Source: Hydrogenophaga sp.
GTDB taxonomy: Bacteria > Pseudomonadota > Gammaproteobacteria > Burkholderiales > Burkholderiaceae_C
DNA: 64,000 bases
Direction: 5' to 3'
NCBI RefSeq assembly: GCF_026125785.1
Contig: NZ_JAHCKL010000025.1
Coordinates: 1-64,000, forward strand
Below, one piece after another: positions 3,910 through 25,134 of the stretch (within the stretch, counting starts at the first letter, position 1; the number at the start of each line of letters is the position of its first letter). The notes below the pieces were generated by a model. It did not search any database. It saw only the letters and a list, made by a program, of their open reading frames with translations, and had not been told where the DNA came from. The position numbers were made by a program, and so were the translations under genes.

Positions 3910-4551
3910 CTAGCCTTCGATGGGCAGGCCCACCAGCCGCTCCAGTTCTGCGTGGGTCAGTCCGTCCACCAGGTCGATGAGTTGCAGGCCTTCGGGCGTG
4001 CAGGCCAGTGTGGCGAGGTCGCTGTAGATGCGTTTGACGCAGCCTATGCCGGTGAGCGGGTAGCTGCACTGGGCCACCACTTTGCTCTCGCCTTTCTTGG
4101 TGAGCAGGTCCATCATCACCCAGGTCTGCTTGGCGCCGATGGCGAGGTCCATGGCGCCGCCGACGGCGGGGATGGCGCCGGCTTCGCCGGTGCTCCAGTT
4201 GGCGAGGTCGCCGGTGGCGGAGACCTGGAAGGCGCCGAGCACGCAGATGTCCAGGTGGCCGCCGCGCATCATGGCGAAGCTGTCGGCGTGGTGGAAGTAC
4301 ACGCCGCCGGGCAGCAGCGTGACGGGTTGCTTGCCGGCGTTGATGAGGTCGTAGTCTTCTTCGCCGGCCGCGGGCGCCGGGCCCATGCCGAGGATGCCGT
4401 TCTCGCTGTGCAGCACCACCTCGATGCCGGGCGGCAGGTGGTTGGCCACCAGCGTGGGCTGGCCGATGCCCAGGTTGACGTAGGCGCCGTCGTGGATGTC
4501 CTGCGCCACGCGGCGCGCGAGTTCGTCCTTGGTTCTGCGGGTGTAGTTCAT
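3910..4551 (-). CDS. pcaJ: 3-oxoacid/3-oxoadipate CoA-transferase subunit B
   Basis: A 213-residue beta subunit of a family I CoA-transferase. With subunit A it moves CoA from succinyl-CoA to a 3-oxoacid. The catalytic Glu lies in the SENGILGMGP motif near residue 50, and GGAMDLAIGAKQTWVMM and the C-terminal HAELERLVGLP-type ending are also family features. The start ATG at 4551 follows subunit A by 14 bp, so the two are cotranscribed. Similarity alone does not separate acetoacetate (scoB) from 3-oxoadipate (pcaJ) enzymes. The nearby maleylacetate reductase and hydroxyquinol dioxygenases make 3-oxoadipate the likelier substrate. Confidence 0.85.
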   Translation of the reverse strand: MNYTRRTKDELARRVAQDIHDGAYVNLGIGQPTLVANHLPPGIEVVLHSENGILGMGPAPAAGEEDYDLINAGKQPVTLLPGGVYFHHADSFAMMRGGHLDICVLGAFQVSATGDLANWSTGEAGAIPAVGGAMDLAIGAKQTWVMMDLLTKKGESKVVAQCSYPLTGIGCVKRIYSDLATLACTPEGLQLIDLVDGLTHAELERLVGLPIEG

Positions 4552-4565
4552 GTCTGCCTCTGCTG

Positions 4566-5282
4566 TCACGCGGCGGTCTTGAAGCCGCCGGCCTGTGTGG
4601 CCACGCGCGGCACCTGCACGATGGCGCTGACGTGGATGCCGGGTGTCACCACCGCCTCGGGGTCGAAGCCGCCCAGCTCCACGATCTCGTGCACGCTGGC
4701 GATGGTGCGCTTCGCGGCGGTCGCCATCACCGGACCGAAGTTGCGCGCCGCCTTGCGGTAGCTGAGGTTGCCCCAGCGGTCTCCGCGCTCGGCTCGGATG
4801 AGCGCCACGTCGCCGTGGATCGGGTACTCCAGCACATAGGGCCGGCCGTTGATGACGCGCGTCTCCTTGGGGCTGCCGTCGGCGTGGTTCGCCAGTTCGG
4901 TGCCGTAGCCCGTAGGCGTGAAGAAGGCGCCGATGCCGGCACCGGCGGCGCGCAGGCGCTCGGCCAGATTGCCCTGGGGCACGAGTTCGAGTTCGAGCGC
5001 GCCGCTGCGGTACAGCGCATCGAACACATGGCTGTCGGCCTGGCGCGGAAAACTGCAGATGATCTTGCGCACGCGCCCGGCCTTGAGCAGGGCGGCCAGG
5101 CCATGGTCGCCATTGCCCGCGTTGTTGTTGACCACGGTGAGGTCGCGCGCGCCCTGTTCGATGAGGCCGTCGATGAGTTCGCCCGGAATGCCGGCGGTGC
5201 CAAAGCCGCCGATCAGCACGGTGGCGCCGTCCTGCACGCCGGCCAGCGCCTCGGCCACCGAGGCGGCGATCTTGTTGATCAA
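4566..5282 (-). CDS. pcaI: 3-oxoacid/3-oxoadipate CoA-transferase subunit A
   Basis: A 238-residue alpha subunit of a family I CoA-transferase. It has the CoA-binding glycine-rich stretch LIGGFGTAGIPGELI near residues 22-36, TVVNNNAGNGDHGL near 49-62 and FFTPTGYGTELA further on. Translation probably starts at TTG (5282), since a GGAG sequence lies about 8 bases upstream and no ATG in frame fits better. It pairs with subunit B 14 bp downstream. It is transcribed divergently from the dehydrogenase gene that starts at 5492, and the shared 209-bp spacer holds a perfect palindrome (5401-5414). The likely role is activation of 3-oxoadipate. Confidence 0.85.
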   Translation of the reverse strand: MINKIAASVAEALAGVQDGATVLIGGFGTAGIPGELIDGLIEQGARDLTVVNNNAGNGDHGLAALLKAGRVRKIICSFPRQADSHVFDALYRSGALELELVPQGNLAERLRAAGAGIGAFFTPTGYGTELANHADGSPKETRVINGRPYVLEYPIHGDVALIRAERGDRWGNLSYRKAARNFGPVMATAAKRTIASVHEIVELGGFDPEAVVTPGIHVSAIVQVPRVATQAGGFKTAA

Positions 5283-5400
5283 GGGAAGTCTCCAGTGGGT
5301 GCGGTTGAGAGAGCAAGGGGAGGGCGCCGGGGAGGCGGCTTCCGGCTGGCATTGTCATCGGGTTTTCCACGTCCGTGGGGAGCTGGCTTTTCTCAGACCG

Positions 5401-5414
5401 GAAAAGTGATTTTC
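5401..5414. promoter_or_regulatory. Palindromic operator candidate, copy 1 (GAAAAGTGATTTTC)
   Basis: A perfect GAAAA-N4-TTTTC palindrome in the divergent promoter region between pcaI and the dehydrogenase at 5492. It is centred about 85 bp upstream of the plus-strand gene. The same motif recurs at 11731-11744 and 50982-50995, so it is probably the binding site of a shared regulator. Confidence 0.55.
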
Positions 5415-5491
5415 AGTTCTTCCGTTGTCACGGGCGAGGGTGGGCGACACACTCTGCGGCCATTGACAACGACCGACAGGAGACAAGAGTG

Positions 5492-6418
5492 GTGAGCAGC
5501 AAACGCATGGGATGGATCGGGCTGGGCCGCATGGGCGAGGCGATGGTGAAGCGGCTGACCCAGGCCGGCCACACGGTGGAGGTGTGGAACCGCACGGCCG
5601 CCAAGGCCGCACCCCTGGCCGAATACGGGGCCGTGGTGGTGAACAGCAAGCAGGACCTTTCCACCTGCGACACTGTGTTCACCATGGTGTCCACGACCAA
5701 CGACCTCAAGGAGGTTCTGTTTGGCGAAGGTGGCCTGGTCGCTGGCGCCCGGCGTCCGCGCGTGGTGGTCGACAGCTCCTCTATCTCGCAGGAGGGTTCG
5801 GCCGAGATCCGCGCGAAGCTGGAAGCCCTGGGCATCGCTTACCTGTGCGCGCCGGTCTCCGGCAACGCCAAGGTGGCCAAGGCCGGCAAGCTGCTGGTGG
5901 TGGCTTCGGGGCCCAGGTCCATCTACGACGAGGCCGAGCCTTACCTCGCCGCCATGTCGCGCAAAGCCATGTGGGTGGGCGAAGGCGAGCTGGCGCGCGT
6001 CTGGAAGATCGCGCACAACACCATGTTCGGTGTGATCATCCAGAACCTCTGCGAGATCACCGTGCTGGCGGAAAAGGCCGGCATTCCGCGCCATGTGTTC
6101 CTGGAGAGCATCAACGACTCGGTGCTGGGCTCCATGTACACGCGCTACAAGACGCCGGTGCTCACCAAGCTGAACTTCGAGCAGGTGACCTTCACTCCCA
6201 AGCTGCTGCTCAAGGACATGGACCTTGGGCTGGGCGCGGCCAAGGCGCATGGCGTGGCCATGCCGGCGGCGGCGGCCACGCGCGAGAGCATCGCGCGCAT
6301 GGTGGGCCGTGGCTACGACGACATCGACTTTGCCGTGCTGCTCAAGGAAACCGCGGCCGACGCCGGGCTGCAGATCCAGCCGCTGGACGTCGATGTCAGC
6401 GACGGCCTGAGCAACTGA
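5492..6418 (+). CDS. NAD(P)-dependent beta-hydroxyacid dehydrogenase (GarR/MmsB family)
   Basis: About 308 residues. A member of the 3-hydroxyisobutyrate/tartronate-semialdehyde reductase family, which interconverts a hydroxyacid and its semialdehyde with NAD(P). The N-terminal Rossmann loop is WIGLGRMGEAMVKRL, the substrate-binding motif is PVSGNAKVAKAGKL near residue 120, and the catalytic Lys lies in the WKIAHNTMFG-type helix. The start is a GTG at 5492 (an adjacent GTG lies at 5489), about 7 bases after an AGGAGAC ribosome site. An in-frame ATG at 5507 is less well placed. It is the first gene of a plus-strand run that continues with the amidohydrolase 10 bp downstream. The substrate is unknown. 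Confidence 0.85.
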   Translation: MSSKRMGWIGLGRMGEAMVKRLTQAGHTVEVWNRTAAKAAPLAEYGAVVVNSKQDLSTCDTVFTMVSTTNDLKEVLFGEGGLVAGARRPRVVVDSSSISQEGSAEIRAKLEALGIAYLCAPVSGNAKVAKAGKLLVVASGPRSIYDEAEPYLAAMSRKAMWVGEGELARVWKIAHNTMFGVIIQNLCEITVLAEKAGIPRHVFLESINDSVLGSMYTRYKTPVLTKLNFEQVTFTPKLLLKDMDLGLGAAKAHGVAMPAAAATRESIARMVGRGYDDIDFAVLLKETAADAGLQIQPLDVDVSDGLSN

Positions 6419-6428
6419 GGGCCCGGGC

Positions 6429-7772
6429 ATGAACGCCGCCCGAACCCTTGTCCGCGGAGCCACCGTCGTCACCATGGACGCGCAGGGCGACCTGGCGCGC
6501 GGCGACGTGCTGGTCACCGGCGACACGATCACGGCCATCGAGCCGGTGATCATCGCGGACGACGCGCGGGTGGTCGATGCCCGTGGCTGCATCGTCATTC
6601 CCGGCCTGGTCAATGCGCACATGCACACCTGGCAGACCGCCTTGCGAGGGGTGGCGGCCAACTGGACGCTGCTGCAGTACTTCAAGAACATGCACGCCGG
6701 CCTGGCGACGGTGTTCACGCCCGAAGACCTGCACATTGCCACCCTGGTGGGCGCGCTCAACCAGCTCAACTGCGGCACCACCACCCTGGTGGACTGGTGC
6801 CACAACAACCCCACGCCGGCGCACAACGACGCGGCGGTGGCCGGGCTGGAGCAGTCCGGCATCCGCGCGGCCTTCTTCCACGGCACGCCCAAGCCAGACC
6901 CGCAACCGGGCCAGACGCCGTTCTGGGAGCAGCCGCATCCGCGCGCCGAGGTCGAGCGCCTGCTCAAGGCCCATGCGGGCAAGCCGCTGCTGGGCATCCA
7001 CGCCGCCGTGCTGGGGCCGCACTACGCCACGTTGGAGGTGGCCATGCACGACTTCCGCATGGCCAAGGAACTGGGGCTGATCGCCTCGCTGCACCAGGGT
7101 GGCGGCCCCGCCCGTACGCCCGACGGCTGGGAACGCCTGGACGCGGCGGGCCTGCTGGGGCCTCACATCAACATCGTGCACGGCCATGCGCTGAGCGATG
7201 CGCAACTGGCCCGATTCTGCGAGCTGGGCATGAGCTTTTCCGCGGCGGCGGAGAGCGAGATGTCGCAAGGCCACGGCCACCCCCTGACGGGACGCCTGCG
7301 GGCGCTGGGGCGCGCGCCTTCGCTGGGTGTGGACCTGGAAAGCGTGATGAGCGGCGACATGCTCAGCCAGGCCCGCATCGCCCTGGGCATCCAGCGCAGC
7401 CTGGACAACGTGGCGCACCGCGAGGCGCACGGCAGCATTCCGCCCACCTCCACCATCACCACGCGCGAGGCGCTGGCCTGGGTAACGCTGGAAGGCGCGC
7501 GCATGCTGGGGCAGCAGGACCGCATCGGCAGCCTGGCGCCGGGCAAGCAGGCCGACCTGGTGGTGATCCGTGCCGACACGCTGAACATGCAGCCGGTGCA
7601 CGACCCGGTGAGTGCGGTGGTGATGCAGGCGTCCCTGGCCAACATCGACAGCGTGATGGTGGCGGGCCAGTGGCGCAAGCGCGATGGGCGCCTGCAGGAC
7701 GTGGACATCACCCCCTTGCTGGACCAGCTGCGCGCCTCCGGCCAGAAGATCACGCAGGCCATGGGCCTCTGA
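6429..7772 (+). CDS. Metal-dependent amidohydrolase (AtzA/TrzA/SsnA-like deaminase family)
   Basis: A 447-residue amidohydrolase of the cytosine-deaminase-like superfamily that includes chlorohydrolases, guanine deaminase and 8-oxoguanine deaminase. Metal ligands are visible as HMH (His64, His66), His222 in LHQGG, His251/His253 in VHGHAL and Asp302 in LGVDLES. The C-terminus has the composite-domain ending GSLAPGKQADLVVI. Members hydrolyse C-N or C-Cl bonds on N-heterocycles or remove amino groups. Lying between two beta-hydroxyacid dehydrogenases and next to a Bug binding protein, it may open or deaminate a substrate imported for the hydroxyquinol pathway. The actual substrate cannot be read from the sequence. 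Confidence 0.85.
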   Translation: MNAARTLVRGATVVTMDAQGDLARGDVLVTGDTITAIEPVIIADDARVVDARGCIVIPGLVNAHMHTWQTALRGVAANWTLLQYFKNMHAGLATVFTPEDLHIATLVGALNQLNCGTTTLVDWCHNNPTPAHNDAAVAGLEQSGIRAAFFHGTPKPDPQPGQTPFWEQPHPRAEVERLLKAHAGKPLLGIHAAVLGPHYATLEVAMHDFRMAKELGLIASLHQGGGPARTPDGWERLDAAGLLGPHINIVHGHALSDAQLARFCELGMSFSAAAESEMSQGHGHPLTGRLRALGRAPSLGVDLESVMSGDMLSQARIALGIQRSLDNVAHREAHGSIPPTSTITTREALAWVTLEGARMLGQQDRIGSLAPGKQADLVVIRADTLNMQPVHDPVSAVVMQASLANIDSVMVAGQWRKRDGRLQDVDITPLLDQLRASGQKITQAMGL

Positions 7773-7856: not shown

Positions 7857-8843
7857 ATGAAAAGAATGTGGTCCACACCCCTGGCCGTCTGCGCGACAGT
7901 GCTGGCGCTGGCGCCCTGTGTGCTGCCGGCGACGGCCGCCGCCCAGGCCTACCCGGCCAAGCCCATCCGCTTTCTGGTGCCCTTTACCGCCGGCAGCGGC
8001 ACCGACCTGATCGCACGCACCGTGGGCGACGCCATGTCGCGCAGCATGGGCCAGCCCATTGTGGTGGAGAACCGCCCTGGGGCCGGTGGTTCGCTGGCCA
8101 CGGCGGTGGTGGCGCGTGGCGAGCCCGATGGCTACACCGTCCTCATCCCCTCGTCCAGCCACGCGGTCAACCCGGCCATCTACAACAACCTCACCTACGA
8201 CACGCTGCGGGACCTCACCGGCATCACGCCGCTGGCGGCGCTGCCCAACGTGATGGTGGTGTCCCCCGCGCGGGGCTGGAAGAGCGTGAGCGATGTGCTG
8301 GCCGCCGCGCGTGCCAAGCCCGGTCAGCTGAACTACGCTTCGGCCGGCGTGGGCAGCGCCACCCACCTCAACGCCGAGAAGTTCAAGCTCCAGGCCGGCT
8401 TCGACGCGCAGCACATTCCCTTCAAAGGCACGCCGGAGGCCCTGGCCGACGTCATGGGTGAACGCTCCGACTGGTACTTCTCGCCGCTGTCGTCGGCCCT
8501 GCCCCTGATCCGGGAGAACAAGCTGGTGCCGCTGGCCGTGAGCACCGCCCAGCGCACCAGCGCGCTGCCTCAGGTGCCCACCACGGTGGAAGCGGGCGTG
8601 CCCGGCTCGGACTTCGTGTTCTGGGTCGGCATGATCGTGCATGCCCAGACGCCGCCAGCCGTGCAGAAGCGCCTGCACGCCGAGGCGCTCAAGGCGCTGG
8701 CCGATCCGGAGGTGAAAGACCGCCTCACGCGGCTGGGTGCAGACCCCTATCCCATGGAGCCCGAGGCCTTCAACGCCTTCATCCGCACCGAGATGGACGC
8801 TGCTGCGCGCATCGCCCGTGCGGCAAACCTCAAAGGACAGTAA
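7857..8843 (+). CDS. Bug-family (TctC) periplasmic solute-binding protein
   Basis: A 328-residue periplasmic binding protein of the Bug/TctC family, which captures carboxylates and other small molecules. The ATG at 7857 follows an AGGAGAC site and gives a signal peptide ending near TAAAQA. The mature start is YPAKPIRFLVPFTAGSGTD, the family hallmark, followed by GQPIVVENRPGAGG and the YNNLTYDTLRDL segment. No TctA/TctB membrane genes are in the window, so it is an orphan binding protein, as is common in Burkholderiales. Its TAA stop directly abuts the ATG of the next gene, a dehydrogenase, so they are cotranscribed. Ligand unknown. Confidence 0.9.
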   Translation: MKRMWSTPLAVCATVLALAPCVLPATAAAQAYPAKPIRFLVPFTAGSGTDLIARTVGDAMSRSMGQPIVVENRPGAGGSLATAVVARGEPDGYTVLIPSSSHAVNPAIYNNLTYDTLRDLTGITPLAALPNVMVVSPARGWKSVSDVLAAARAKPGQLNYASAGVGSATHLNAEKFKLQAGFDAQHIPFKGTPEALADVMGERSDWYFSPLSSALPLIRENKLVPLAVSTAQRTSALPQVPTTVEAGVPGSDFVFWVGMIVHAQTPPAVQKRLHAEALKALADPEVKDRLTRLGADPYPMEPEAFNAFIRTEMDAAARIARAANLKGQ

Positions 8844-9716
8844 ATGACCACATGGCGTGTGCACTTCATTGGCGTGGGCAAGATGGGCCTGCCCATGGCC
8901 ACCCACATCCGGGACGCCGGCCACGCCGTGACCGTGAGCGACCTCGACCCGGCGCGCATCGCGCTCGCGGCCGCGCGCGGCCTGGCGGTCGGTGGCGGGG
9001 ACGACCTGGTCGACGCCGAGGTGGTGATGTCTTCGCTGCCGCACGACCAGGCCCTGCTCAGCGTGGGGCTCTCGGTGGCCGCCTCGCTCAAGCCTGGGTC
9101 GGTGTACGTGGACACCAGCACCGTGTCCCAACGCGCCTCGGCCGATGTGGCGCAGGCCTGCGCGCGGGCTGGCGTGGACTACCTGCGCACCACGGTCTCG
9201 GGCAACAACCACATGGCCGAGGCCGCCCAGCTCACGGTGATGGCATCCGGTCCGCGTGCGGTGCATGAGCGCCTGCTGCCCTTGTTGCGCTACTGGGGTC
9301 CCAACCACTTCTACCTGGGCGAAGGCGAGCAGGCTAGGCTGATGAAGCTGGTGGTGAACCTGCTCATTGCGCAGACCAGCGCCATGCTGGCCGAAGGGCT
9401 CACCCTGGGGCGCAAAGGTGGACTCGACTGGGCGGACATGTGGGCGGTGCTCGGTGCCAGCGCGGTGGCTTCGCCTATTCTCAAGGCCAAGTCGGTGCAG
9501 CTCTCGCAGCGCGACTTCACGCCCACCTTCACCGTGACGCAGATGAACAAAGACCTCGACCTCATCCTCGCCGAAGCCGCCGCCTGCGAGGCGCCGGTGC
9601 CGCAGACCGCATCGACCCGCCAGCTCATGGCGGCGGCGCAGGCGCAGGGCGACGGCGAGCAGGACTACGCGGCCATCATCAGGGCCGTGGAACGCAGTGC
9701 GGGGCTGGCTCCATGA
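8844..9716 (+). CDS. NAD(P)-dependent beta-hydroxyacid dehydrogenase, second copy
   Basis: A 290-residue paralogue of the dehydrogenase at 5492. It has the Rossmann loop FIGVGKMGLPMATHIRDAGH at the start, TVSGNNHMAEAAQL as the substrate-binding motif and a MKLVVNLLIAQT helix with the catalytic Lys. The ATG directly follows the stop of the Bug gene, and its own TGA overlaps the ATG of maleylacetate reductase (ATGA), so translation is coupled with both. Two divergent paralogues in one cluster suggest two oxidation or reduction steps on hydroxyacid intermediates. The substrate is not known. Confidence 0.85.
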   Translation: MTTWRVHFIGVGKMGLPMATHIRDAGHAVTVSDLDPARIALAAARGLAVGGGDDLVDAEVVMSSLPHDQALLSVGLSVAASLKPGSVYVDTSTVSQRASADVAQACARAGVDYLRTTVSGNNHMAEAAQLTVMASGPRAVHERLLPLLRYWGPNHFYLGEGEQARLMKLVVNLLIAQTSAMLAEGLTLGRKGGLDWADMWAVLGASAVASPILKAKSVQLSQRDFTPTFTVTQMNKDLDLILAEAAACEAPVPQTASTRQLMAAAQAQGDGEQDYAAIIRAVERSAGLAP

Positions 9717-10789
9717 AGCGCTTCGTCTACCAGGGTCTGCCTTCGCGCGTGGTGTTCGGCGAAGGTTCGCTGGCCTCCTTGCCGGCGGAGATGGACGCGC
9801 TCCAGGCGGGGCGCGCGCTGGTGCTGTGCACGCCGGAGCAGCGCGCCTCTGCCGAACAGGTGGCGGCCCTGCTGGGTGCGCGGGCCGCCGGTATTTTCGA
9901 CCGCGCCGTCATGCACGTGCCCATCGAGACCGCGCGCGAGGCGCGCGAGGAGGCGCGCCGCCTGGGCGCAGACTGCGCCGTGGCCATAGGAGGCGGCTCC
10001 ACCACCGGACTGGGCAAGGCCATCGCGCTCGATTCAGGCTTGCCCATCGTCGCGATCCCCACCACCTACGCGGGCTCCGAGATGACGCCGATCTACGGCA
10101 TCACCGAGGCCGGCTTGAAGAAGACCGGCAAGGACATGCGCGTGCTGCCGCGCACCGTGATCTACGACCCCGCGCTGTCGGCGAGCCTGCCGGTGGGCCT
10201 GAGCGTGACCAGCGGCATCAACGCCATCGCGCATGCGGCCGAGGGCCTGTATTCGGTGGAAGGCAACCCGGTGATCGACCTGATGGCGGAAGAGGGCATT
10301 GCCGCGCTGGGTCGCGCACTGCCCCGCATCCGCGCCAACGCCAGCGATGCCGAAGCCCGCTCGGACGCGCTGTATGGCGCGTGGCTCTGCGGCATCGTGC
10401 TCGGCACCGTCGGCATGGCGTTGCACCACAAGCTCTGCCACACCCTGGGAGGCAGTTTCAACCTGCCCCACGCGGAGACCCACACCATCGTGCTGCCCCA
10501 TGCCCTGGCGTACAACGCCGCCGCCGCGCCGCAGGCCATGCAGCGCATCCGCCGCGCACTGGGCGGTGACAGCGCGGCCCAGGCGGTCTACGACCTGGCC
10601 CGGGACAATGGTGCGCCCGTGGCGCTCAAGGCCATCGGCATGAAGGCCGAGGACCTGGACAAGGCCTGTGACATCGCCATGAGCAACCAGTACCCGAATC
10701 CCCGGGCCCTGGAGCGTGCGGCGATACGGCAACTGCTGCAGGATGCCTTCGATGGCGTGAGGCCCCAGGGCGACCCTAGTAGACCGTGA
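9713..10789 (+). CDS. macA: Maleylacetate reductase
   Basis: A 358-residue iron-containing-alcohol-dehydrogenase-fold enzyme that reduces maleylacetate to 3-oxoadipate with NAD(P)H. It opens with MKRFVYQGLPSRVVFGEGS, the usual start of maleylacetate reductases. It has the nucleotide-binding GGGSTTGLGK at residues 93-102, PTTYAGSEMTPIYGIT near 116 and the HHKLCHTLGGSFNLPHAETH segment that replaces the metal site of true alcohol dehydrogenases. It follows the hydroxyquinol dioxygenase step biochemically. Its start overlaps the stop of the upstream dehydrogenase by 4 bp. Its 3' end overlaps the convergent LysR gene by 14 bp. Confidence 0.93.
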   Translation: MKRFVYQGLPSRVVFGEGSLASLPAEMDALQAGRALVLCTPEQRASAEQVAALLGARAAGIFDRAVMHVPIETAREAREEARRLGADCAVAIGGGSTTGLGKAIALDSGLPIVAIPTTYAGSEMTPIYGITEAGLKKTGKDMRVLPRTVIYDPALSASLPVGLSVTSGINAIAHAAEGLYSVEGNPVIDLMAEEGIAALGRALPRIRANASDAEARSDALYGAWLCGIVLGTVGMALHHKLCHTLGGSFNLPHAETHTIVLPHALAYNAAAAPQAMQRIRRALGGDSAAQAVYDLARDNGAPVALKAIGMKAEDLDKACDIAMSNQYPNPRALERAAIRQLLQDAFDGVRPQGDPSRP

Positions 10790-11705
10790 ACCGCCCGGTC
10801 CACTTGCGCTCGTAGTCCATCTTCTTGAAGTGCTCGGCCATGAAGTCGATGAAGGTGCGCACCTTGGCGCTGAGGTGCTTGCGGCTGGGATAAGCCAGGT
10901 TGATGGTCAGGCGCGGCAGGTCCCAGTCGTCCAGCATGGGCACCAGCCGGCCCGCGACGATGTCGTCGTAGACGATGTAGCTGGGCTGCACCAGGATGCC
11001 CATGCCATCGAGCGCGGCGGCCCGCAGGATCTGCCCGTCGTTGCTTTCCAGCAGTCCCTTGACGCCCACCGTGCGTTGCTCGTCGCCGCGGGAGAAGCGC
11101 AGCTCATTGGGGTTGTTGGCATGGATGTAGATCAGCAGCTTGTGGCGCTGCAGGTCGTCCAGATCGCGCGGCACGCCGTGGCGCGCCAGGTAGCCGGGTG
11201 AGGCCACCAGGATGCGGCGCGTCTCGGCCAGGCGGCGAATGGTGATGTTGGAGTCCGGTTCGTATTCCCGGTTGCGGATCGCCACATCGATGTTGTTGTC
11301 GATGATGTCCAGGTAGCGGTTCGCGGCCTCCACGTGCACCGTGACGTTGGGGTAGCGGTCGGTGTACTCGCGCAGCAGCGGCGCGATGTGGTGCATGGAA
11401 AACGAGAGCGATGCCGTCACGCGCAGCACGCCGGTGGGATTGAGCGCCGCCGCGTTGACGGTGGACTCCGCGTCGCGCAGATCGGCCAGGATGGCGCGTG
11501 CGCGCTGGAAGAACTCCTGCCCGGTGTCGGTGAGGTAGAGGCGGCGCGTGTTGCGCTCCACCAGCCGCGCGCCCAGCCGTTCTTCGAGTGCCGCCAGATG
11601 GCGGCTGGCGCTGGCGTTGGAGAGGTCCAGCAGTTCGGCTGCGCGGCTCAGGCTGCCGGTCTCAGCCACCTGCACGAACAGTTCGATCTCGGTCCAGCGG
11701 TCCAT
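10776..11705 (-). CDS. LysR-family regulator divergent from hydroxyquinol dioxygenase
   Basis: A 309-residue LysR regulator. The helix-turn-helix spans about residues 1-60 (DRWTEIELFVQVAETGSLS, then LSNASASRHLAALEERLG). The rest is the effector-binding domain with a TASLSFSMHHIAPLLREY segment. The ATG at 11705 is chosen because a GAGGAGACC site precedes it. Upstream extension would enter the palindromic operator. It reads away from the dioxygenase at 11828 across a 122-bp spacer with a near-perfect A/T palindrome at 11731-11744, the usual LysR arrangement. It is the prime candidate to control the dioxygenase and TRAP genes and perhaps the other promoters carrying the same palindrome. Confidence 0.9.
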   Translation of the reverse strand: MDRWTEIELFVQVAETGSLSRAAELLDLSNASASRHLAALEERLGARLVERNTRRLYLTDTGQEFFQRARAILADLRDAESTVNAAALNPTGVLRVTASLSFSMHHIAPLLREYTDRYPNVTVHVEAANRYLDIIDNNIDVAIRNREYEPDSNITIRRLAETRRILVASPGYLARHGVPRDLDDLQRHKLLIYIHANNPNELRFSRGDEQRTVGVKGLLESNDGQILRAAALDGMGILVQPSYIVYDDIVAGRLVPMLDDWDLPRLTINLAYPSRKHLSAKVRTFIDFMAEHFKKMDYERKWTGRFTVY

Positions 11706-13790: not shown

Positions 13791-13796
13791 CCCACC

Positions 13797-16352: not shown

Positions 16353-16988
16353 GTGCAGGACAAACTGAAAGACGAACTGCTGATCCGCCAGATGGTGGAG
16401 CGCTGGGCCGTGTGGCGCGATGCGGGCGACTGGGAGCGCTTCGCCACGGTCTGGCACCCGCAGGGCGTGATGATGGCCACCTGGTTCCAGGGGCCGTTCG
16501 CGGACTTCATCCGTGTCACGCAGGAGGGCTGGGCCAAGGGCGTGAGCATCCTGCATTTCCTGGGCGGCTCGGCCATTGAAGTCGAAGGCGACCGCGCCAT
16601 CGCGCAGACCAAGATGACCATCTCCCAGCGTGGCATGGTCGAAGGCCGCGATGGTCCCGTGTTGTGCGACGTGGTCTGCACCGGTCGTTTCTACGACTTC
16701 GTGGTGCGCCACGAAGGCCAGTGGAAGCTGCTGCACCGCCAGCCCATCTACGAGAAGGACCGCATCGACCCGCTGGACGCCAATGCCACGCTGGTGCTGG
16801 ACCAGAAGGCCCTGGCGGAACTGCCCGAGGGCTACCGCCACCTGGCCTACATCCAGACGCGCATTGGCTACAAGGTCAAGATGGACATGCCCATGCTCAA
16901 GGGCCCCGTGGTGGAAGAGCTCTACCGCCGTGGCGCGCGCTGGCTCGCTGGCGGCGACCTGGAGCGCGAGGTGAATCCACCCGGTTGA
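16353..16988 (+). CDS. SnoaL/NTF2-like family protein
   Basis: A 211-residue protein whose first ~130 residues look like a SnoaL-like (NTF2 fold) domain. It has LLIRQMVERWAVWRDAGDWERFATVWHPQGVMMATWF, then HFLGGSAIEVEGDRAIAQTKM and FYDFVVRHEGQWKLLHRQPIYEKD. Such domains form polyketide cyclases, isomerases, dehydratases and the small subunits of ring dioxygenases. The extra ~70 C-terminal residues are not typical of the simplest members. It starts at GTG 16353 after AAGGAGACC. Its place after the YciI and Dabb genes in the catabolic run suggests an isomerase or hydrolase step, but no catalytic assignment is safe. Confidence 0.72.
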   Translation: MQDKLKDELLIRQMVERWAVWRDAGDWERFATVWHPQGVMMATWFQGPFADFIRVTQEGWAKGVSILHFLGGSAIEVEGDRAIAQTKMTISQRGMVEGRDGPVLCDVVCTGRFYDFVVRHEGQWKLLHRQPIYEKDRIDPLDANATLVLDQKALAELPEGYRHLAYIQTRIGYKVKMDMPMLKGPVVEELYRRGARWLAGGDLEREVNPPG

Positions 16989-19074: not shown

Positions 19075-19962
19075 TCAGCTCGATGGCCCCATGGCGGCGC
19101 GGCGGATCACGGAGGCCATGTGCTTCACCATGGGCGAGCGGTTCGCTCCCTTTTTCCAGAGCAGGCCAGGTGTGCGGATCGGCGTCGGGTCTTCGATGGG
19201 GACCACGCGCAGGTCGGGCGAGGGCGTGACCGCGGTTTCCGCGATGATGCCGGCCAGGTCGGTCTGGCGGATCAGCTCGATCATCGGCGCGATCGAGTTG
19301 AGTTCGGCCATCACCCGAGGTTGCGCGCCTGCGGCCTCGAAGCAGTCGTCCAGCAGCTTGCGGGTGGAGAACTGCGTTGGCAGCAGCACCATGCGGCAGT
19401 GGTTGAGTTCGATCATGCGCACGCGGCGGCGCCGCGCCAGCGGGTGGGCGCTGGCCACCACCAGCCGCAGTTCCTCGTTGTAGAGCGGCTCGAACCAGAG
19501 CTCTGGCCGATCGTCCGGGCGGTAGGACACTCCCAGGTCCAGGTGGCCGCTGGCCAGGCGCCGGGCGATCAGTTCGGCCGAGAGCTCTTCCACGCTCACG
19601 CGGATGCCCGGGTGATGGCTGACGAACGACGAGACGCACAGCGGCACCAGGCGGGTGTTGAAGCTGTGCGTGGCGCCGATGCGCAGTTCGCCCACCAGCG
19701 CCTCGGGGGCCTGCCGGATCGATTGCAGGCCGCGGTCGATCTGCTGCAGCGCGGGCACCAGATGGCTGCGCAGCATCTCGCCGGCCTCGGTCAGCGCCAC
19801 GCGCTTGTGGCTGCGGTCGAACAGCACCATCCCCAGTTCTTCCTCCAGTTGCCGGATCTGGTGCGACAAGGTCGATTGCGTCACGTGCAGGCGCTCCGCC
19901 GCCCGCGTGAAGTTCTGCGTCTCGGCAACGGCATCGAAGTAGCGCAGGTGCCTGAGTTCCAT
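19075..19962 (-). CDS. LysR-family regulator divergent from second dioxygenase
   Basis: A 295-residue LysR regulator. The winged helix is MELRHLRYFDAVAETQNFT and TQSTLSHQIRQLEEELG, close to the CynR/CbbR/BenM-like branch. The effector domain includes LRIGATHSFNTRLVPL and SGHLDLGVSYRP. ATG 19962 is chosen because AGGAGA lies 5 bases upstream, while the GTG one codon earlier would be too close. It is divergent from the hydroxyquinol-type dioxygenase at 20079, so it probably senses a ring substrate or cleavage product. Its C-terminus ends against repeat array 1. Confidence 0.9.
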   Translation of the reverse strand: MELRHLRYFDAVAETQNFTRAAERLHVTQSTLSHQIRQLEEELGMVLFDRSHKRVALTEAGEMLRSHLVPALQQIDRGLQSIRQAPEALVGELRIGATHSFNTRLVPLCVSSFVSHHPGIRVSVEELSAELIARRLASGHLDLGVSYRPDDRPELWFEPLYNEELRLVVASAHPLARRRRVRMIELNHCRMVLLPTQFSTRKLLDDCFEAAGAQPRVMAELNSIAPMIELIRQTDLAGIIAETAVTPSPDLRVVPIEDPTPIRTPGLLWKKGANRSPMVKHMASVIRRAAMGPSS

Positions 19963-19986
19963 CACGTTCTCCTGATCCTCGATAGC

Positions 19987-20078: not shown

Positions 20079-20975
20079 ATGGCTCAACACGAAGCCGCAG
20101 ACCTCACGCAGGCCGTTCTCGATCGCCTGGCGGATTGCCAGGACCCCCGTTTCAAGCAGGTGATGAGCGCGCTCATCCGCCACGCCCACGCCTTTGTGCG
20201 TGAGGTGGAGCTCACCGAGGCCGAGTGGATGACCGCCATCGGTTTTCTCACCGAGACCGGGAAGACCTGCGACGACAAGCGCCAGGAGTTCATCCTGTTG
20301 TCGGACACCCTGGGCATTTCCATGCTGGTGGTGGCCCTCAATCAGCTCAAGGCGGCGCGCGCCTTCCAGGCCCAGGGCGGTGGTGCCAGCACGCCCACGG
20401 AGGCCACGGTGCAGGGGCCTTTCTACTGGGAGGGGGCGCCCGAGCTGGAACTGGGCAGCGACATTGGCCAGAGCATGCCTGGCGAGCCCGCCTACTACCA
20501 CGGCCGCGTGACCGACACCGAGGGCCAACCCATCGCCAACTGCTGCCTGGACGTGTGGTCTGGCGATGGCGAGGGCGTGTACGACATGCAGATGGGCGAA
20601 GACGCCGGCATGCGCCTGCGTGCGCGCTTCCACACCGACGCGCAAGGCCGCTACCGCTTCTGGTCCATCAAACCGTCGTACTACCCGGTGCCCGACGACG
20701 GGCCGGTGGGTGCCATGCTGCGGCGCATGGGCCGCCACCCCAACCGCCCGGGCCACATCCACATGAAGGTGTACGCGCCAGGCCATCAGCCCGTGACCAC
20801 GCACCTCTTCGTCGCCGACAGCCCCTACCTGGACTCGGACGCGGTCTTTGGCGTGCGCAACAGCCTGATCGTGCCGTTTGCCGCGCACCCGCCTGGCGAG
20901 GCGCCCGATGGCCGCCACATGAACATCCCGTACCACAGCGCGACCTACGACTTCCGCCTGGTGCGTGCGGCCTGA
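20079..20975 (+). CDS. Hydroxyquinol 1,2-dioxygenase-type intradiol dioxygenase, second copy
   Basis: A 298-residue intradiol dioxygenase paralogous to the one at 11828. The iron ligands are Tyr168 in GVYDMQ, Tyr202 in SYYPVPDDGP, and His226/His228 in RPGHIHMK. The N-terminal dimerisation segment reads LTEAEWMTAIGFLTETGKTCDDKRQEF, almost the same as in the first copy. It has a 10-residue insertion around residues 97-106 that the first copy lacks. It starts at ATG after an ACAGGAGAC site and heads a second operon with the citryl-CoA-lyase-like, CaiB, Bug and DctP genes. The expected product is maleylacetate or a substituted form. Confidence 0.88.
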   Translation: MAQHEAADLTQAVLDRLADCQDPRFKQVMSALIRHAHAFVREVELTEAEWMTAIGFLTETGKTCDDKRQEFILLSDTLGISMLVVALNQLKAARAFQAQGGGASTPTEATVQGPFYWEGAPELELGSDIGQSMPGEPAYYHGRVTDTEGQPIANCCLDVWSGDGEGVYDMQMGEDAGMRLRARFHTDAQGRYRFWSIKPSYYPVPDDGPVGAMLRRMGRHPNRPGHIHMKVYAPGHQPVTTHLFVADSPYLDSDAVFGVRNSLIVPFAAHPPGEAPDGRHMNIPYHSATYDFRLVRAA

Positions 20976-21018
20976 GCGTGCGCACCGCGCCCTTTCTGCA
21001 ACCAACCGGAGATTTCTT

Positions 21019-21834
21019 TTGAAGATAGGCAAGGCCACCGTGCCGCAGTCGGCCATCTGTGCCTCCAACCCCGACGCCATCGTGGTGCGGGGCCAGGACC
21101 TCTGCCAGGACCTGATCGGGCAGGTGAATTTCGCCGACTACTTCTACCTGCTGCTCACCGGCCGCCGGCCCGATGCGCCGGCCAGCGCGGTGCTCAACGC
21201 CACGCTGGTGGCGATTGCCGAACACGGCCTCGTGCCCAGTGTGCAGGCGGCGCGCATGACGCTGGCCGCGGCCCCGGATGCGCTTCAGGGCGCCGTGGCT
21301 GCGGGCATCCTGGGCTGCGGCTCTGTGATCCTGGGGGCCTCGGAAACCGCGGGCCGCCTGTTCGATGAGATCGACCGCGCCGCGCCCGCGCACGGCGGCG
21401 ACATCACCGCCGCCGCGCGCGCCGTGGTGAGCGAATGGCGCGCGCGCAAGCAGGCTGTGCCCGGCTACGGGCATCCGCTGCACAAAGCGCGCGACCCACG
21501 CGTATCGGCGCTGTTCCGCGTGTCGCTGCAGGCGGGAGGTGGCCAGCGCTTCGTGCAGATCGCCGAGGCGGTGGAGACCGTGTTGCCGGAGTTGCTGGGC
21601 AAGGAGCTCAAGCTCAACGTGTCGGCGGCCATTCCCGCTGTGCTGCTGGGCGTGGGCTTTCCGCTCAACGCGCTCAAGGGCGTGCCCATGCTGGCGCGCT
21701 GCGCCGGGCTCATTGCCCACATGAGCGAGGAGCTGGAAGACCCGATCGGTTTTGCGCTGTCCTACCAGGCCACGCGCGAACAACGCTACACCGGCGTGCT
21801 CCCGGAGGGCTTCGTGCCCGACCAGAAAGTGTGA
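21019..21834 (+). CDS. Citryl-CoA lyase / citrate-synthase-family protein
   Basis: A 271-residue short member of the citrate synthase superfamily, of the type annotated as citryl-CoA lyase. Family features are GQVNFADYFYLLLTGRRP, the small-domain PGYGHPLHKARDPR with the substrate-binding His, and SAAIPAVLLGVGFPLNALKGVPMLARCAGLIAHMSEE near the C-terminus. At 271 residues it is much shorter than true citrate synthases (~430). A TTG start at 21019 sits 7 bases after CGGAG, and no ATG fits. The next gene is a CaiB-type CoA-transferase, so the pair could activate and then cleave a citrate-like or 3-hydroxy-acyl-CoA compound. The substrate is unproven. Confidence 0.8.
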   Translation: MKIGKATVPQSAICASNPDAIVVRGQDLCQDLIGQVNFADYFYLLLTGRRPDAPASAVLNATLVAIAEHGLVPSVQAARMTLAAAPDALQGAVAAGILGCGSVILGASETAGRLFDEIDRAAPAHGGDITAAARAVVSEWRARKQAVPGYGHPLHKARDPRVSALFRVSLQAGGGQRFVQIAEAVETVLPELLGKELKLNVSAAIPAVLLGVGFPLNALKGVPMLARCAGLIAHMSEELEDPIGFALSYQATREQRYTGVLPEGFVPDQKV

Positions 21835-21844
21835 AGGCTCGGCC

Positions 21845-23008
21845 ATGACCCAGGTTCTTCAAGGTCTGCGGGTGGTGGAGCACGGCACGTTCATCACCGG
21901 GCCGGCCGCTTCGATGATGCTGGCCGACATGGGCGCCGAGGTGGTGAAGGTGGAACTGCCCGGCACCGGCGATCCGTTCCGCGCTTTCAAGGGTGGGCTC
22001 TACAGCCCTCACTACCAGACCTACAACCGCAACAAGCACAGTGTGGCGCTGGACACGCGCAAACCCGAAGACCGCGACACCTTCGACCGGCTCATCGAGG
22101 GCGCGGACGTCTACATCCAGAACTTCCGCCCTGGTTTTGCCGAGCAGATCCACGCCGGCGAGGAGCGCCTGCGCGCGCTCAACGGGCGTCTGGTGTACTG
22201 CGCCATCAGCGGCTTCGGCCAGGACGGTCCGGCGGCCAGCCGCCCCAGCTACGACACGGTCGCGCAGGCCGCCAGTGGTTACCTGCGCCTGCTGGTCAAC
22301 CCGGCCAACCCGCGCGTGGTGGGGCCGGCCATTGCCGATGCCATGACCGGCTACTACGCCGCCTTTGGCATCCTGGGCGCGCTGTACGAGCGGCAGCTCA
22401 GTGGCCGCGGCCGGCGCGTGGATGTCTCGATGTTCGAGGCCATGGCGCATTTCAACCTCGACGCCTTCACGCACCTGTTCTCCGTGGGCGAGGTCATGGG
22501 GCCGTACAGCCGGCCCAGCGTGTCGCAATCCTACGTGCTCGAATGCGCCTGCGGCGGCTGGGTCGCGCTGCACATGTCCTCGCCAGAGAAGTTCTGGCAG
22601 GGTCTGGCGAACGCGATGGAGCGGCCCGACATCTTCGAGGACGAACGCTTCGCCAGCCGCCCCGGGCGCATCGCCAACCAGGATGCGCTGATCGAGCTCC
22701 TGGGCGGCATCCTCAAGGGCCGCACGCGCGACGACTGGTGCGCGCGCCTGCTGGCGCAGGATGTGCCGCACGCACCCATGTACCGCACCGACGAGGTGCC
22801 CGAGGACCCGCAGGCGCAGCACCTGCAGCTCTTCGTGGACACGCACCACCCGGTGATGGGCGCCTCGCGCACCGTGCGTTCGCCGCTGAGCTTCGACGGC
22901 CAGCGCAGCCTGGCCGTGATGCCTCCGCCGACGCTGGGCGAACACAACGCCCGCTACGCACGCGGCTGGCCCGCATCCCCATCCAACGACAACAAGGAGA
23001 CCGCATGA
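21845..23008 (+). CDS. CaiB/BaiF family (type III) CoA-transferase
   Basis: A 387-residue family III CoA-transferase. Family marks are LRVVEHGTFITGPAASMMLADMGAEVVKVE at the N-terminus, NRNKHSVALD, FRPGFAEQIHAG and PAIADAMTGYYAAFGILGAL with the catalytic Asp, then GRRVDVSMFEAM. Such enzymes move CoA between carboxylic acids through an aspartyl-CoA thioester. It begins 10 bp after the citryl-CoA-lyase-like gene, and its stop overlaps the ATG of the following Bug gene (ATGA). The pairing suggests that it activates the acid later cleaved by the lyase-like protein. Confidence 0.88.
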   Translation: MTQVLQGLRVVEHGTFITGPAASMMLADMGAEVVKVELPGTGDPFRAFKGGLYSPHYQTYNRNKHSVALDTRKPEDRDTFDRLIEGADVYIQNFRPGFAEQIHAGEERLRALNGRLVYCAISGFGQDGPAASRPSYDTVAQAASGYLRLLVNPANPRVVGPAIADAMTGYYAAFGILGALYERQLSGRGRRVDVSMFEAMAHFNLDAFTHLFSVGEVMGPYSRPSVSQSYVLECACGGWVALHMSSPEKFWQGLANAMERPDIFEDERFASRPGRIANQDALIELLGGILKGRTRDDWCARLLAQDVPHAPMYRTDEVPEDPQAQHLQLFVDTHHPVMGASRTVRSPLSFDGQRSLAVMPPPTLGEHNARYARGWPASPSNDNKETA

Positions 23009-24000
23009 ACGAATCCCGACGCCTGCTCCGCCGGCGCGATGCCATGATCACCCTCGGTGCCGCCGCCGGCAGCCTGGTGCTGCCCGCCGCCGCCCATGCC
23101 CAGGCCTATCCGGACAAGCCGGTGCGCATGGTCGTGCCCTTCGGCCCCGGCACCACCACCGACATCATCGCGCGCGTGGTGGGCGAGGGCATGGCCCGCG
23201 AACTGGGCCAGTCCATCGTGGTGGAGAACCGCGCGGGCGCGGGCGGCACCGTGGGGTCCCAACAGGTGGCACGCGGTGCGGCCGACGGCTACCAGCTTCT
23301 CATGGGCACGGTGGGTACGCACGCGATCAACGCCACGCTGTTCCGCAACCTGGCCTACGACCCACTCAAGGACTTCACGCCCCTGGCACTGGTGGGCTAC
23401 ACGCCGACGATGCTGGTGGTGTCCGGCCAGGGGCCCATCAAGACCCTCGCGGACCTCAAGGCCCGCGCGGCGCAGGGGCAGGGCGTGAGTTTCGCGTCTG
23501 CCGGCAACGGCACCTCGGGCCACCTGGCCGGCGAGCTGCTCAAGGCGCGCCTGGGCGGGCAGATGCTGCACGTGCCGTACAAGGAAGGCGGCATGGCCAT
23601 GAACGACGTGATGGGCGGCCGTGCCGACTTCATGTTCTACCACCCGGCCGCCGTGCTGCCGCACATGCAGGCCGGCCGGCTTCGCGCACTGGGCGCGTCC
23701 AGCGCGCAACGCAGCGCCGCAGCCAAGGACGTGCCGACCATCGCCGAGCAGATCGGCGCCGATTTCGATCTGGTGGCCTGGTTCATGCTGTACGCGCCCG
23801 CCGCCACGCCCGCGCCCGTCGTGGCGCGCCTGCGCCAGGTGGCGGCCAGCGCCCTCGCCAGTGCCGATGTGGCGCCCAAGCTGGCGGCGCAGGGTGTCGA
23901 GCAGAGGCCGCTCGCGCCCGACGCCATGGCCGCCTTTGGCCGTGCCGAAGTGGACAAATGGGCCGCACTCGTGCGGCAGTCCGGCGCCCAGGTCGATTGA
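23005..24000 (+). CDS. Bug-family (TctC) periplasmic solute-binding protein
   Basis: A 331-residue Bug/TctC binding protein with a signal containing RRRDAMITLGAAAGSLVLPA, cut near AHAQA. The mature start is YPDKPVRMVVPFGPGTTTDI, with GQSIVVENRAGAGGTVG, RNLAYDPLKDFTPLALVG and the SAGNGTSGHLAGEL pocket. Translation is coupled to the CaiB gene by the ATGA overlap, a firm sign that uptake and CoA activation belong together. It is the third Bug protein of the region. No membrane partner is visible. Confidence 0.9.
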   Translation: MNESRRLLRRRDAMITLGAAAGSLVLPAAAHAQAYPDKPVRMVVPFGPGTTTDIIARVVGEGMARELGQSIVVENRAGAGGTVGSQQVARGAADGYQLLMGTVGTHAINATLFRNLAYDPLKDFTPLALVGYTPTMLVVSGQGPIKTLADLKARAAQGQGVSFASAGNGTSGHLAGELLKARLGGQMLHVPYKEGGMAMNDVMGGRADFMFYHPAAVLPHMQAGRLRALGASSAQRSAAAKDVPTIAEQIGADFDLVAWFMLYAPAATPAPVVARLRQVAASALASADVAPKLAAQGVEQRPLAPDAMAAFGRAEVDKWAALVRQSGAQVD

Positions 24001-24048
24001 GTCTTTCTTCGCGTTGACGACACCCCAGACCATAACCAGGAGACAAAC

Positions 24049-25134
24049 ATGCGACGTTCGACATTCCTTCGCCTGACGGCACTGGCCGCGGCAGTGGCGG
24101 GTCTTCCTCTGGCCGCAACGGCCCAGCAGGTGATCAACCTCACCGTGGCGTCGAGCCACCCCACCACCATCCCATGGGTGGGCTTCATTCCGCAGGTGTT
24201 CATGCCCGAGGTGGACAAGCGCCTGGCAGCGGGCGGCAAGTACAAGGTGCAGTGGCGGGAAGCCTTTGGTGGACAACTCTACAAGGCCAATGCCACCTTG
24301 ACCTCGGTGGAGCAGGGCATCACCGACATCGGCTGGGTGTTCAGCTACCTGGAGCCGGCGAAGATGCCGATCAGTCAACTCAGCGTGCACACGCCCTTCG
24401 TCACCAGCGACACGCGCATCGTGTTGGGTGCGATGAACGAACTCATCGAGAAGAACCCCGCGTTCAAGAACGAGTGGGACAAGTACAACCTCGTGTTCCT
24501 GGGTGCTACCGGGTCCGACACCTACGACATCTTCACCAAATTCCCCGTGAAATCGGTCGATGACCTGCGCGGCAAGAAGATCTCGGCGCCAGGCATCCTG
24601 GGCCAGTGGCTGCGCGGCGTGGGCGCCACGCCGGTCGACGGCGCGCTCACCACCTTCTACACCGACATCCAGACCGGTGTGTCCGACGGCGTGGTGTCCC
24701 TGGCCACCGGCATCCTGCCGACCAAGATCTACGAAGTCGCGCCCTACATCACCAAGGTCAACATGGGCGTGGTGTTCTCTGGCGGCCTGGCCATCAACAA
24801 GGACACCTGGGCCAAGCTGCCGCCGGAGGTGCAGACCGCGATGCGCGAGGCCGGCGCCGAGTACTCGCGCCGCCACGGCGAGGACCTGGTGCAGCGCCAC
24901 CAGGCCGCGCTGGACCGCATGGTCGAGATCGGCAAGACGCAGAACCCGCCGGTGACCGTGACCCCCCTGTCCGAAGCCGACCGCCGCAAGTGGATCGACC
25001 AGTTGCCCGCGCTGTCGCAGGAATGGGTGAAGAACAACGAAGCGCGCGGCGTGCCCGCCAAATCCTTGCTCACGCAGTACCTCACCGCCGTGAAGGCGCG
25101 CGGCGCCAAATCCGAGCGGGATTGGGAGCGCTGA
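24049..25134 (+). CDS. Orphan TRAP-type binding protein (DctP family)
   Basis: A 361-residue DctP binding protein and close paralogue of the one at 12681. It shares TVASSHPTTIPWVGF, QWREAFGGQLYKANATL, a LRGKKISAPGILGQWLRG pocket with the ligand-binding Arg, and TDIQTGVSDGVVSLATGILPTKIYEVAPY. The signal is cut near ATAQQ. It has no dctQM next to it and ends the operon. It may share the DctQM at 13797-15681 with a different ligand preference. After it comes 870 bp without a credible gene. Confidence 0.88.
   Translation: MRRSTFLRLTALAAAVAGLPLAATAQQVINLTVASSHPTTIPWVGFIPQVFMPEVDKRLAAGGKYKVQWREAFGGQLYKANATLTSVEQGITDIGWVFSYLEPAKMPISQLSVHTPFVTSDTRIVLGAMNELIEKNPAFKNEWDKYNLVFLGATGSDTYDIFTKFPVKSVDDLRGKKISAPGILGQWLRGVGATPVDGALTTFYTDIQTGVSDGVVSLATGILPTKIYEVAPYITKVNMGVVFSGGLAINKDTWAKLPPEVQTAMREAGAEYSRRHGEDLVQRHQAALDRMVEIGKTQNPPVTVTPLSEADRRKWIDQLPALSQEWVKNNEARGVPAKSLLTQYLTAVKARGAKSERDWER

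Follow-up and report, generated by a model that had tools for sequence, protein, structure and literature searches.

Cofactor-free decarboxylation of hydroxybenzoates has been described in fungi for the enzymes AGDC1 and PPP2 (PMC7862292). According to the same paper, AGDC1 relies on a catalytic dyad of D40 and H86, on two tryptophans (W35 and W61) that twist the carboxyl group, on R39, which anchors it, and on T60, Y150, and Q192, which bind the hydroxyl groups; activity is lost in mutants at W35, R39, D40, T60, H86, and Q192, and the E88A change at the potassium site leaves the enzyme inactive. The His-Asp dyad is common to AGDC1, scytalone dehydratase, and LinA, and the AGDC1 homologues proposed earlier from lactic bacteria seem to lack the catalytic side chains, above all the histidine (PMC7862292). 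In Blastobotrys, Agdc1p decarboxylates gallate to pyrogallol, and in A. niger gallate use persists upon deletion of the Agdc1p homologue (PMC10512348). The other system to be considered is the hydroxyquinol pathway, with a dioxygenase such as that of PDB entry 1tmx and a maleylacetate reductase (MAR). Here we analyse a stretch of 64,000 nucleotides (the window) at the start of a 66,468-base contig (C18, NZ_JAHCKL010000025.1) of a Hydrogenophaga sp. genome (assembly of 4.17 Mb in 46 contigs, 93.8% complete), in which a catabolic gene cluster at 3910-25134 encodes, along with predicted enzymes of hydroxyquinol degradation, a small protein of the SnoaL/NTF2 fold (hereafter SnoaL).

The cluster is real and its predicted lower pathway ordinary; its most interesting part is the small SnoaL gene, which was missing from the first-pass annotation of this DNA. 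That annotation had seen no known entry reaction, a statement that no longer holds, as the cluster contains a candidate entry decarboxylase and the genome a homologue of a flavin hydroxylase. We regard SnoaL as the best candidate for the entry step into the hydroxyquinol pathway, and on balance we favour the view that it would decarboxylate a trihydroxybenzoate, likeliest the 2,4,5- isomer, to hydroxyquinol, which would then feed a dioxygenase (Dox1) and MAR.

In a search of the PDB, the closest solved relatives of SnoaL by sequence are PPP2 (6e-26) and AGDC1 (4.5e-22). All eight AGDC1 residues W35, R39, D40, T60, W61, H86, Y150, and Q192 are kept in SnoaL, and they are invariant in the 17 rows of one alignment (A1) and the 40 rows of a second one made of close relatives (A2), the window protein being included in both. 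Among 18 homologues fetched from the host's order, 13 have the full set; the other five are distant and lack T60 or Q192, one of them also H86. A fold search with an AlphaFold model of SnoaL against the PDB returned ten PPP2/AGDC1 chains first (E 3.8e-12 to 3.7e-9), followed by bile-acid dehydratase (2.4e-4) and scytalone dehydratase (8.7e-4). SnoaL is thus similar to AGDC1/PPP2 in sequence, fold, His-Asp dyad, tryptophan clamp, R39, T60, Y150, and Q192, and may work like AGDC1; it differs in being bacterial and linked to hydroxyquinol genes.

The product proposed for SnoaL has an evident outlet in the same cluster. Dox1 matches 1tmx (3.9e-92) far better than the best chlorocatechol enzyme (1.9e-39) or the best catechol enzyme (8.6e-33) among the PDB matches listed. 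It is identical to 1tmx at 16 of 17 compared positions, which we take to be metal-ligand, pocket, or near-pocket residues; these include the metal ligands Y164, Y197, H221, and H223 and the pocket residues D83, V107, and F108, and the one exception is F112, replaced by H. MAR matches solved maleylacetate reductases (3w5s, 2.4e-114; 3hl0, 3.5e-112), and both subunits of a CoA-transferase pair carry PF01144. In a locus of the same genus (L073) the order is CoA-transferase A and B, thiolase, HIB2, MAR, LysR1, Dox1, DctPQM, YCII, and Dabb. The thiolase is not found within the window's cluster; a genome search for it, as the first-pass annotation had proposed, found a homologue 86% identical to that of L073 elsewhere in the same genome (G000:C23:285301-286542). 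In Skermanella, a gene of the 3-keto-5-aminohexanoate cleavage family adjoins MAR; this family cleaves beta-keto acids and would fit 3-oxoadipate. From these family and structure matches, which bear out the hydroxyquinol-type lower pathway proposed before, Dox1, MAR, and the CoA-transferase pair are predicted to form an ordinary hydroxyquinol lower pathway. Compared with the known pathway, the resemblance lies in the sequences of Dox1 and MAR, the Dox1 pocket, and the CoA-transferase, with the thiolase located elsewhere, whereas the window differs by the additional AMH, HIB1, HIB2, NTR, YCII, Dabb, SnoaL, and a second dioxygenase module, and these extra genes recur in relatives. A search of the same genome for MR_MLE_N (muconate-cycloisomerase superfamily) gave three matches.

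By Pfam and NCBIfam matches, the interval 3910-25134 holds 23 protein genes rather than the twenty counted before, the YCII, Dabb, and SnoaL genes being absent from the earlier list. Every enzyme named in that list is present with a strong family match (the CoA-transferase pair, amidohydrolase, MAR, two dioxygenases, and the RutE-like, citryl-CoA-lyase-like, and CaiB proteins), and the two proteins with Dioxygenase_N/Dioxygenase_C domains each have, as described, a divergent LysR gene. The genes are as follows:

3910..4551, minus strand: CoA-transferase subunit B (CoAB), PF01144 at 4.9e-39; its orthologue adjoins a thiolase in L073
4566..5282, minus strand: CoA-transferase subunit A (CoAA), PF01144 at 9.9e-67
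5489..6418, plus strand: HIB1, oxidoreductase of the 3-hydroxyisobutyrate-dehydrogenase family, PF03446/PF14833, with all NCBIfam matches below cut-offs
6429..7772, plus strand: amidohydrolase (AMH) of the PRK08204 group, PF01979 at 5.6e-22, NF006056 at 568 bits (cut-off 391)
7857..8843, plus strand: TctC-type solute-binding protein 1 (TctC1), PF03401 at 8.8e-71
8844..9716, plus strand: HIB2, oxidoreductase of the 3-hydroxyisobutyrate-dehydrogenase family, PF03446/PF14833
9713..10789, plus strand: maleylacetate reductase (MAR), best match PDB 3jzd
10776..11705, minus strand: LysR regulator 1 (LysR1), divergent from Dox1, PF00126/PF03466
11828..12667, plus strand: Dox1, predicted hydroxyquinol 1,2-dioxygenase, best PDB match 1tmx
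12681..13790, plus strand: TRAP transporter DctP, PF03480
13797..14369, plus strand: TRAP transporter DctQ, PF04290
14362..15681, plus strand: TRAP transporter DctM, PF06808
15693..15995, plus strand: YCII-family protein, distantly TftG-like, PF03795 at 5.3e-17, PDB 1mwq at 6.2e-9, TftG (4lbh) at 1.8e-8
about 16013..16318 (start inferred), plus strand: Dabb-domain protein, PF07876 at 6e-19
16353..16988, plus strand: SnoaL/NTF2-fold protein (SnoaL_4), candidate cofactor-free trihydroxybenzoate decarboxylase, closest to PPP2 and AGDC1
17053..18072, plus strand: TctC-type solute-binding protein 2 (TctC2), PF03401
18102..18686, plus strand: RutE-like protein of the nitroreductase family (NTR), NF003768 at 272 bits (cut-off 152)
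19075..19965, minus strand: LysR regulator 2 (LysR2), divergent from Dox2, PF00126/PF03466
20079..20975, plus strand: Dox2, of the hydroxyquinol-dioxygenase family with a changed pocket, best PDB match 1tmx at 8.5e-79
20965..21834, plus strand: citryl-CoA-lyase-like protein (CCL), NF004868 at 333 bits (cut-off 193), PDB 6hxp at 2.4e-30
21845..23008, plus strand: class III CoA-transferase (CaiB), PF02515 at 8.1e-100
23005..24000, plus strand: TctC-type solute-binding protein 3 (TctC3), PF03401
24049..25134, plus strand: second DctP-type solute-binding protein, PF03480, 72% DNA identity to the first DctP

This arrangement is beyond chance: a large part of the gene set is found together again in further genera and families. 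A scan of genome contigs gave at least 581 confirmed SnoaL relatives, and we analysed the genomic loci of the best 80 of these with flanks of at most 10 kb; being the closest relatives and mostly from Comamonadaceae, these loci are not independent, and the short flanks lead to an undercount of genes at the distance that AMH and the CoA-transferase have in the window. A homologue of Dox1 or Dox2 (at least 40% identity) is present in 51 loci, including one (L224) whose dioxygenase is distant, while one locus has CCL only and 28 have none of the three. Counted gene by gene, the neighbours of SnoaL in the 80 loci are TctC2 (57), Dabb (45), Dox1 (44), YCII (38), LysR1 (38), NTR (32), MAR (25), Dox2 (16), CCL (15), CaiB (15), HIB2 (14), and AMH (4). 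The closest Dox1 among these loci comes from a Comamonadaceae metagenome-assembled genome (MAG; L179), at 89% identity, with LysR1 at 97% and Dox2 at 92%; in two Hydrogenophaga loci (L168 and L171), Dox1 is 85-86% identical to that of the window. These similarities place the host probably within the Comamonadaceae. One record titled as a Bordetella parapertussis MAG (L221) has a SnoaL 84% identical, within the Comamonadaceae range, and its title may be a misassignment.

The association extends beyond close relatives. Across 300 genomes of the host's order, 17 have SnoaL homologues at E <=1e-10 and 48 have Dox1 homologues at E <=1e-60; excluding the genome under study, Dox1 occurs in 13 of the 16 SnoaL genomes, against 47 of 299 overall (Fisher p 2.9e-9, uncorrected for kinship). 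In most of these SnoaL genomes with Dox1 the two genes do not lie side by side, and among the 18 stretches fetched around SnoaL homologues of the order, SnoaL, MAR, and a dioxygenase are found together only in L026, from another family. The ten neighbours scanned around other SnoaL homologues of the order (L027, L028, L034, and L036) are mixed, with a nitroreductase in L034 and a dienelactone hydrolase in L036. On plasmids, we examined 14 of 20 records with SnoaL, with flanks of 9 kb for six and 5 kb for eight (H4, H6, H8, H10, H18, and H20 were left out, having scores the same or nearly the same as those examined). A dioxygenase of the hydroxyquinol family lies nearby in nine of the 14 (L161, L162, L163, L164, L165, L249, L250, L252, and L253). 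In six of these nine, tblastn also finds MAR; in a seventh (L253), MAR is annotated at the edge of the stretch. Records with SnoaL homologues near MAR and/or the dioxygenase come from Caballeronia, Shinella, Sinorhizobium, Agrobacterium, Rhodococcus, Paraburkholderia, and Embleya, so that the linkage of SnoaL to the dioxygenase spans Proteobacteria and Actinobacteria (Rhodococcus L165 and Embleya L252). Where the plasmid gene is annotated, it is called only "nuclear transport factor 2 family protein". On the plasmid of Rhodococcus erythropolis R138 (L165), the SnoaL-MAR-dioxygenase group lies near a P450, a 2Fe-2S protein, and an FAD oxidoreductase, as well as genes for aminomethyltransferase and folate functions, a setting that might indicate an aromatic acid with methoxy groups.

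Concerning the hydroxylation that would have to precede SnoaL, a protein with FAD_binding_3 and Rng_hyd_C domains (556 aa in L167) is encoded in 20 of the 80 SnoaL loci, and adjoins LysR1 and Dox1 in two of them (L167 and L191). A relative about 55% identical adjoins Dox1 in L081, where two genes separate it from NTR. Among solved structures, this flavin hydroxylase is nearest to RebC and to hydroxylases of the phenol type, for example 2-hydroxybiphenyl 3-monooxygenase. The genome under study encodes a 69% identical homologue on contig C34 (G000:C34, about 88,050-89,700), a candidate for the missing monooxygenase for which a genome search had been suggested earlier. Three Comamonadaceae loci (L180, L182, and L186, the last from Limnohabitans) contain YCII, Dabb, SnoaL, TctC2, NTR, the flavin hydroxylase, and a gene of the fumarylacetoacetate-hydrolase family with no Dox1 in the stretch, which suggests a different ring-cleavage step there.

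We propose that the TRAP and TctC-linked systems would import a hydroxybenzoate-type acid, which a flavin monooxygenase encoded elsewhere in the genome would hydroxylate. SnoaL, judging from its conserved residues, would then strip the carboxyl group without cofactor via the His-Asp dyad and the tryptophan clamp, yielding hydroxyquinol. The 2,4,5- pattern is chosen as the likeliest substrate since it keeps the geometry of the 3,4-dihydroxybenzoate that AGDC1 accepts and yields the compound that Dox1 and MAR need; the lower steps are proposed on the basis of the protein families and of known hydroxyquinol pathways. A role for NTR and the YCII protein might conceivably be to keep hydroxyquinol reduced or to handle its quinone forms. 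Dox2, CCL, and CaiB would constitute a second conserved branch that may share the SnoaL step, using hydroxyquinol or a related product of decarboxylation. We did not retain YCII as an orthologue of TftG (5-chloro-2-hydroxyhydroquinone dehydrochlorinase): the two have the YCII family and the hydroxyquinol context in common, but the sequence match is weak and slightly below that to HI0828 (1mwq).

Several observations weigh against this route. In SnoaL, R87 and E88 of the AGDC1 potassium site are replaced by F and L, and Y146 by R, so that its mechanism or substrate may differ from those of AGDC1; as E88 is a defining feature of AGDC1, we do not file SnoaL as a strict AGDC1/PPP2 member and keep to the wording that it may work like AGDC1. 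The SnoaL model is rough (mean predicted local distance difference test score, pLDDT, 78.7; predicted template-modelling score, pTM, 0.75; residues 28-42 below 50), and superposes on the best fold matches with a template-modelling (TM) score of about 0.6 and a root-mean-square deviation of 7-8 Å. Neither dioxygenase is found in the stretch at 29 of the 80 SnoaL loci (28 also lack CCL, 13 of those being shorter than 20 kb) or at five of the 14 plasmid loci (L166, L247, L248, L251, and L254), and in a genome of the same genus (G049) about 280 kb separate the SnoaL gene and the Dox1 cluster. The flavin hydroxylase is missing from the stretch at 60 of the 80 loci, and its homologue in the genome under study sits beside urate-oxidase-like and XdhC genes, away from catabolic genes. 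Moreover, the route gives no step to AMH, HIB1, HIB2, or module 2. Finally, searching the literature for 2,4,5-trihydroxybenzoate as a phrase returned no paper, which says little as commas were not handled.

Module 2 (Dox2, CCL, and CaiB) is itself conserved. Dox2 keeps the metal ligands and differs from 1tmx at four of the 17 positions (F108Q, F112Y, V113W, and I199V). W113 is present in all 16 Dox2 sequences, with Q108 in 11 and L108 in five, and marks a single clade of the dioxygenase tree with 100/100 support (12 of 83 rows, after thinning from 102). CCL has the citrate-synthase fold by sequence, and the likeness noted earlier to citryl-CoA lyase stands in this respect and in the histidine of PGYGH. 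In contrast, SAHGG and NVDG of the lyase 6hxp read SVILG and NVSA, with the loss of a His and an Asp that, together with the kept His, we take to be the catalytic residues of this fold. Both are lost in all 15 complete sequences among 17 rows, window included (I or V for the first His, S for the Asp). We therefore rejected citryl-CoA lyase as the function of CCL, two of these three residues being gone; its gene is nonetheless conserved beside Dox2 and CaiB. Among the 300 genomes of the order, 11 have a Dox2 match at E <=1e-100, and in the stretches fetched CCL and CaiB are its neighbours only in L092 (genome G171) and in the window. In six other loci (L196, L212, L216, L220, L225, and L226; five from Ramlibacter, one from a Comamonadaceae MAG), LysR2, Dox2, CCL, and CaiB lie upstream of SnoaL, all on one strand except LysR2, with a gap of about 5-6 kb between CaiB and SnoaL and no Dox1 in the stretch. 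All six genomes contain MAR, and Dox2-CCL-CaiB as a full substitute for the MAR route was rejected, as MAR is present in all ten genomes checked, these six included.

The six loci with Dox2, CCL, and CaiB but no Dox1 near SnoaL, together with the changed Dox2 pocket, are what might be expected if SnoaL served mainly module 2, decarboxylating gallate or protocatechuate as AGDC1 does, to pyrogallol or catechol for cleavage by Dox2. We consider this unlikely, given that all six genomes hold MAR and that the SnoaL-MAR-dioxygenase groups of L026 and L161-L165 have dioxygenases without W113. A further possibility, to which we likewise attach little weight, is that SnoaL is a dehydratase or isomerase aromatising a quinate- or cyclitol-like compound to hydroxyquinol, in the manner of scytalone dehydratase. 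It would fit the shikimate-dehydrogenase-like, TIM-barrel, and inositol-dehydrogenase-like genes near the SnoaL-MAR-dioxygenase group of L026, the type II dehydroquinate dehydratase and sugar-phosphate-isomerase-like genes near that of S. meliloti (L162), and the dyad shared with scytalone dehydratase and LinA (PMC7862292). Yet SnoaL keeps R39, which in AGDC1 anchors the carboxyl group, and W35 and W61, which twist it, and the fold search favours PPP2 (3.8e-12) over scytalone dehydratase (8.7e-4).

The amidohydrolase had led the first-pass annotation to suggest a nitrogen-containing ring as the starting compound, in which case AMH would hydrolyse a ring C-N bond to provide the third hydroxyl, and SnoaL would be accessory. 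AMH is present as described, and its homologues co-occur with Dox1: matches of at least 59% identity are found in seven of 299 other genomes, all seven with Dox1 (p 1.6e-6, uncorrected for kinship), the test having used these seven of 13 genomes with a match and left out the six whose matches are 45-49% identical. MAR, CoA-transferase, HIB1, AMH, HIB2, dioxygenase, and NTR occur together in L081, L083, and L084; AMH is found with MAR, dioxygenase, and NTR also in L086, Skermanella L159, and Paraburkholderia L256, and with MAR and dioxygenase in Bosea L160. In L090, HIB1 and TctC1 flank a gene of the RidA family. AMH thus looks like a pathway partner in some genomes. The motif does not support the suggestion. 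AMH resembles TRZ/ATZ-like deaminases and chlorohydrolases in its metal set, kept as HxH in all 11 rows covering the site and as His, His, and Asp in all 12, but the glutamate of HxxE is absent from all 12 sequences (at least 58% identity), nine of which, including that of the window, read HQGG and three HCAG. Two solved relatives, the amidohydrolase 3hpa and the 8-oxoguanine deaminase / ethylaminohydrolase 7ww2, read HLAE at that site, where the glutamate is catalytic. The missing glutamate makes AMH weak evidence for such a substrate. Also, the amidohydrolase superfamily hydrolyses bonds other than ring C-N ones, the cluster of the same genus (L073) lacks AMH, and AMH occurs without a dioxygenase in the stretch in L108, L109, and L257 (in the first two with HIB2, the ten neighbour proteins scanned being mostly housekeeping). 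Its count of four in 80 SnoaL loci also speaks against it, as a lower bound, since a 10-kb flank barely reaches the place of AMH in a window-like order. An N-bearing entry substrate therefore appears improbable to us.

If SnoaL is indeed a trihydroxybenzoate decarboxylase, the existence of bacterial relatives with the catalytic residues intact and with hydroxyquinol genes as companions would assign these genes a role that can be tested. It would also suggest how substrates may enter hydroxyquinol catabolism and supply biocatalysis with decarboxylases that need no cofactor. More tentatively, and with considerable doubt, one may imagine that a bacterial clade of cofactor-free His-Asp decarboxylases devoid of the potassium-site glutamate opens a route from hydroxybenzoate through 2,4,5-trihydroxybenzoate to hydroxyquinol. 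In Comamonadaceae it would be joined to a second ring-cleavage branch made of a dioxygenase with a tryptophan in its pocket, a CoA-transferase, and a protein of the citrate-synthase fold without two catalytic residues, with new chemistry. Among the literature matches listed, which cover few subscription journals, no paper appears to describe the present cluster or an operon of SnoaL, MAR, and a dioxygenase, in line with the earlier view that the gene combination could be undescribed.

Around the cluster, the upstream genes at 542-3499 (a LysR regulator, an SsuE-like flavin mononucleotide (FMN) reductase, and a sulfate-binding protein) were considered as possible members and look sulfur-related, and are therefore not counted. 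The 72% DNA identity between the two DctP genes (12681-13790 and 24049-25134) extends across about 795 bases and suggests a duplication; among the frames scanned, no DctQ or DctM gene lies beside the second copy. Just past the cluster, at 26005-27339, lies a gene for a HipA-like protein that contains both the N-terminal and the C-terminal HipA domain.

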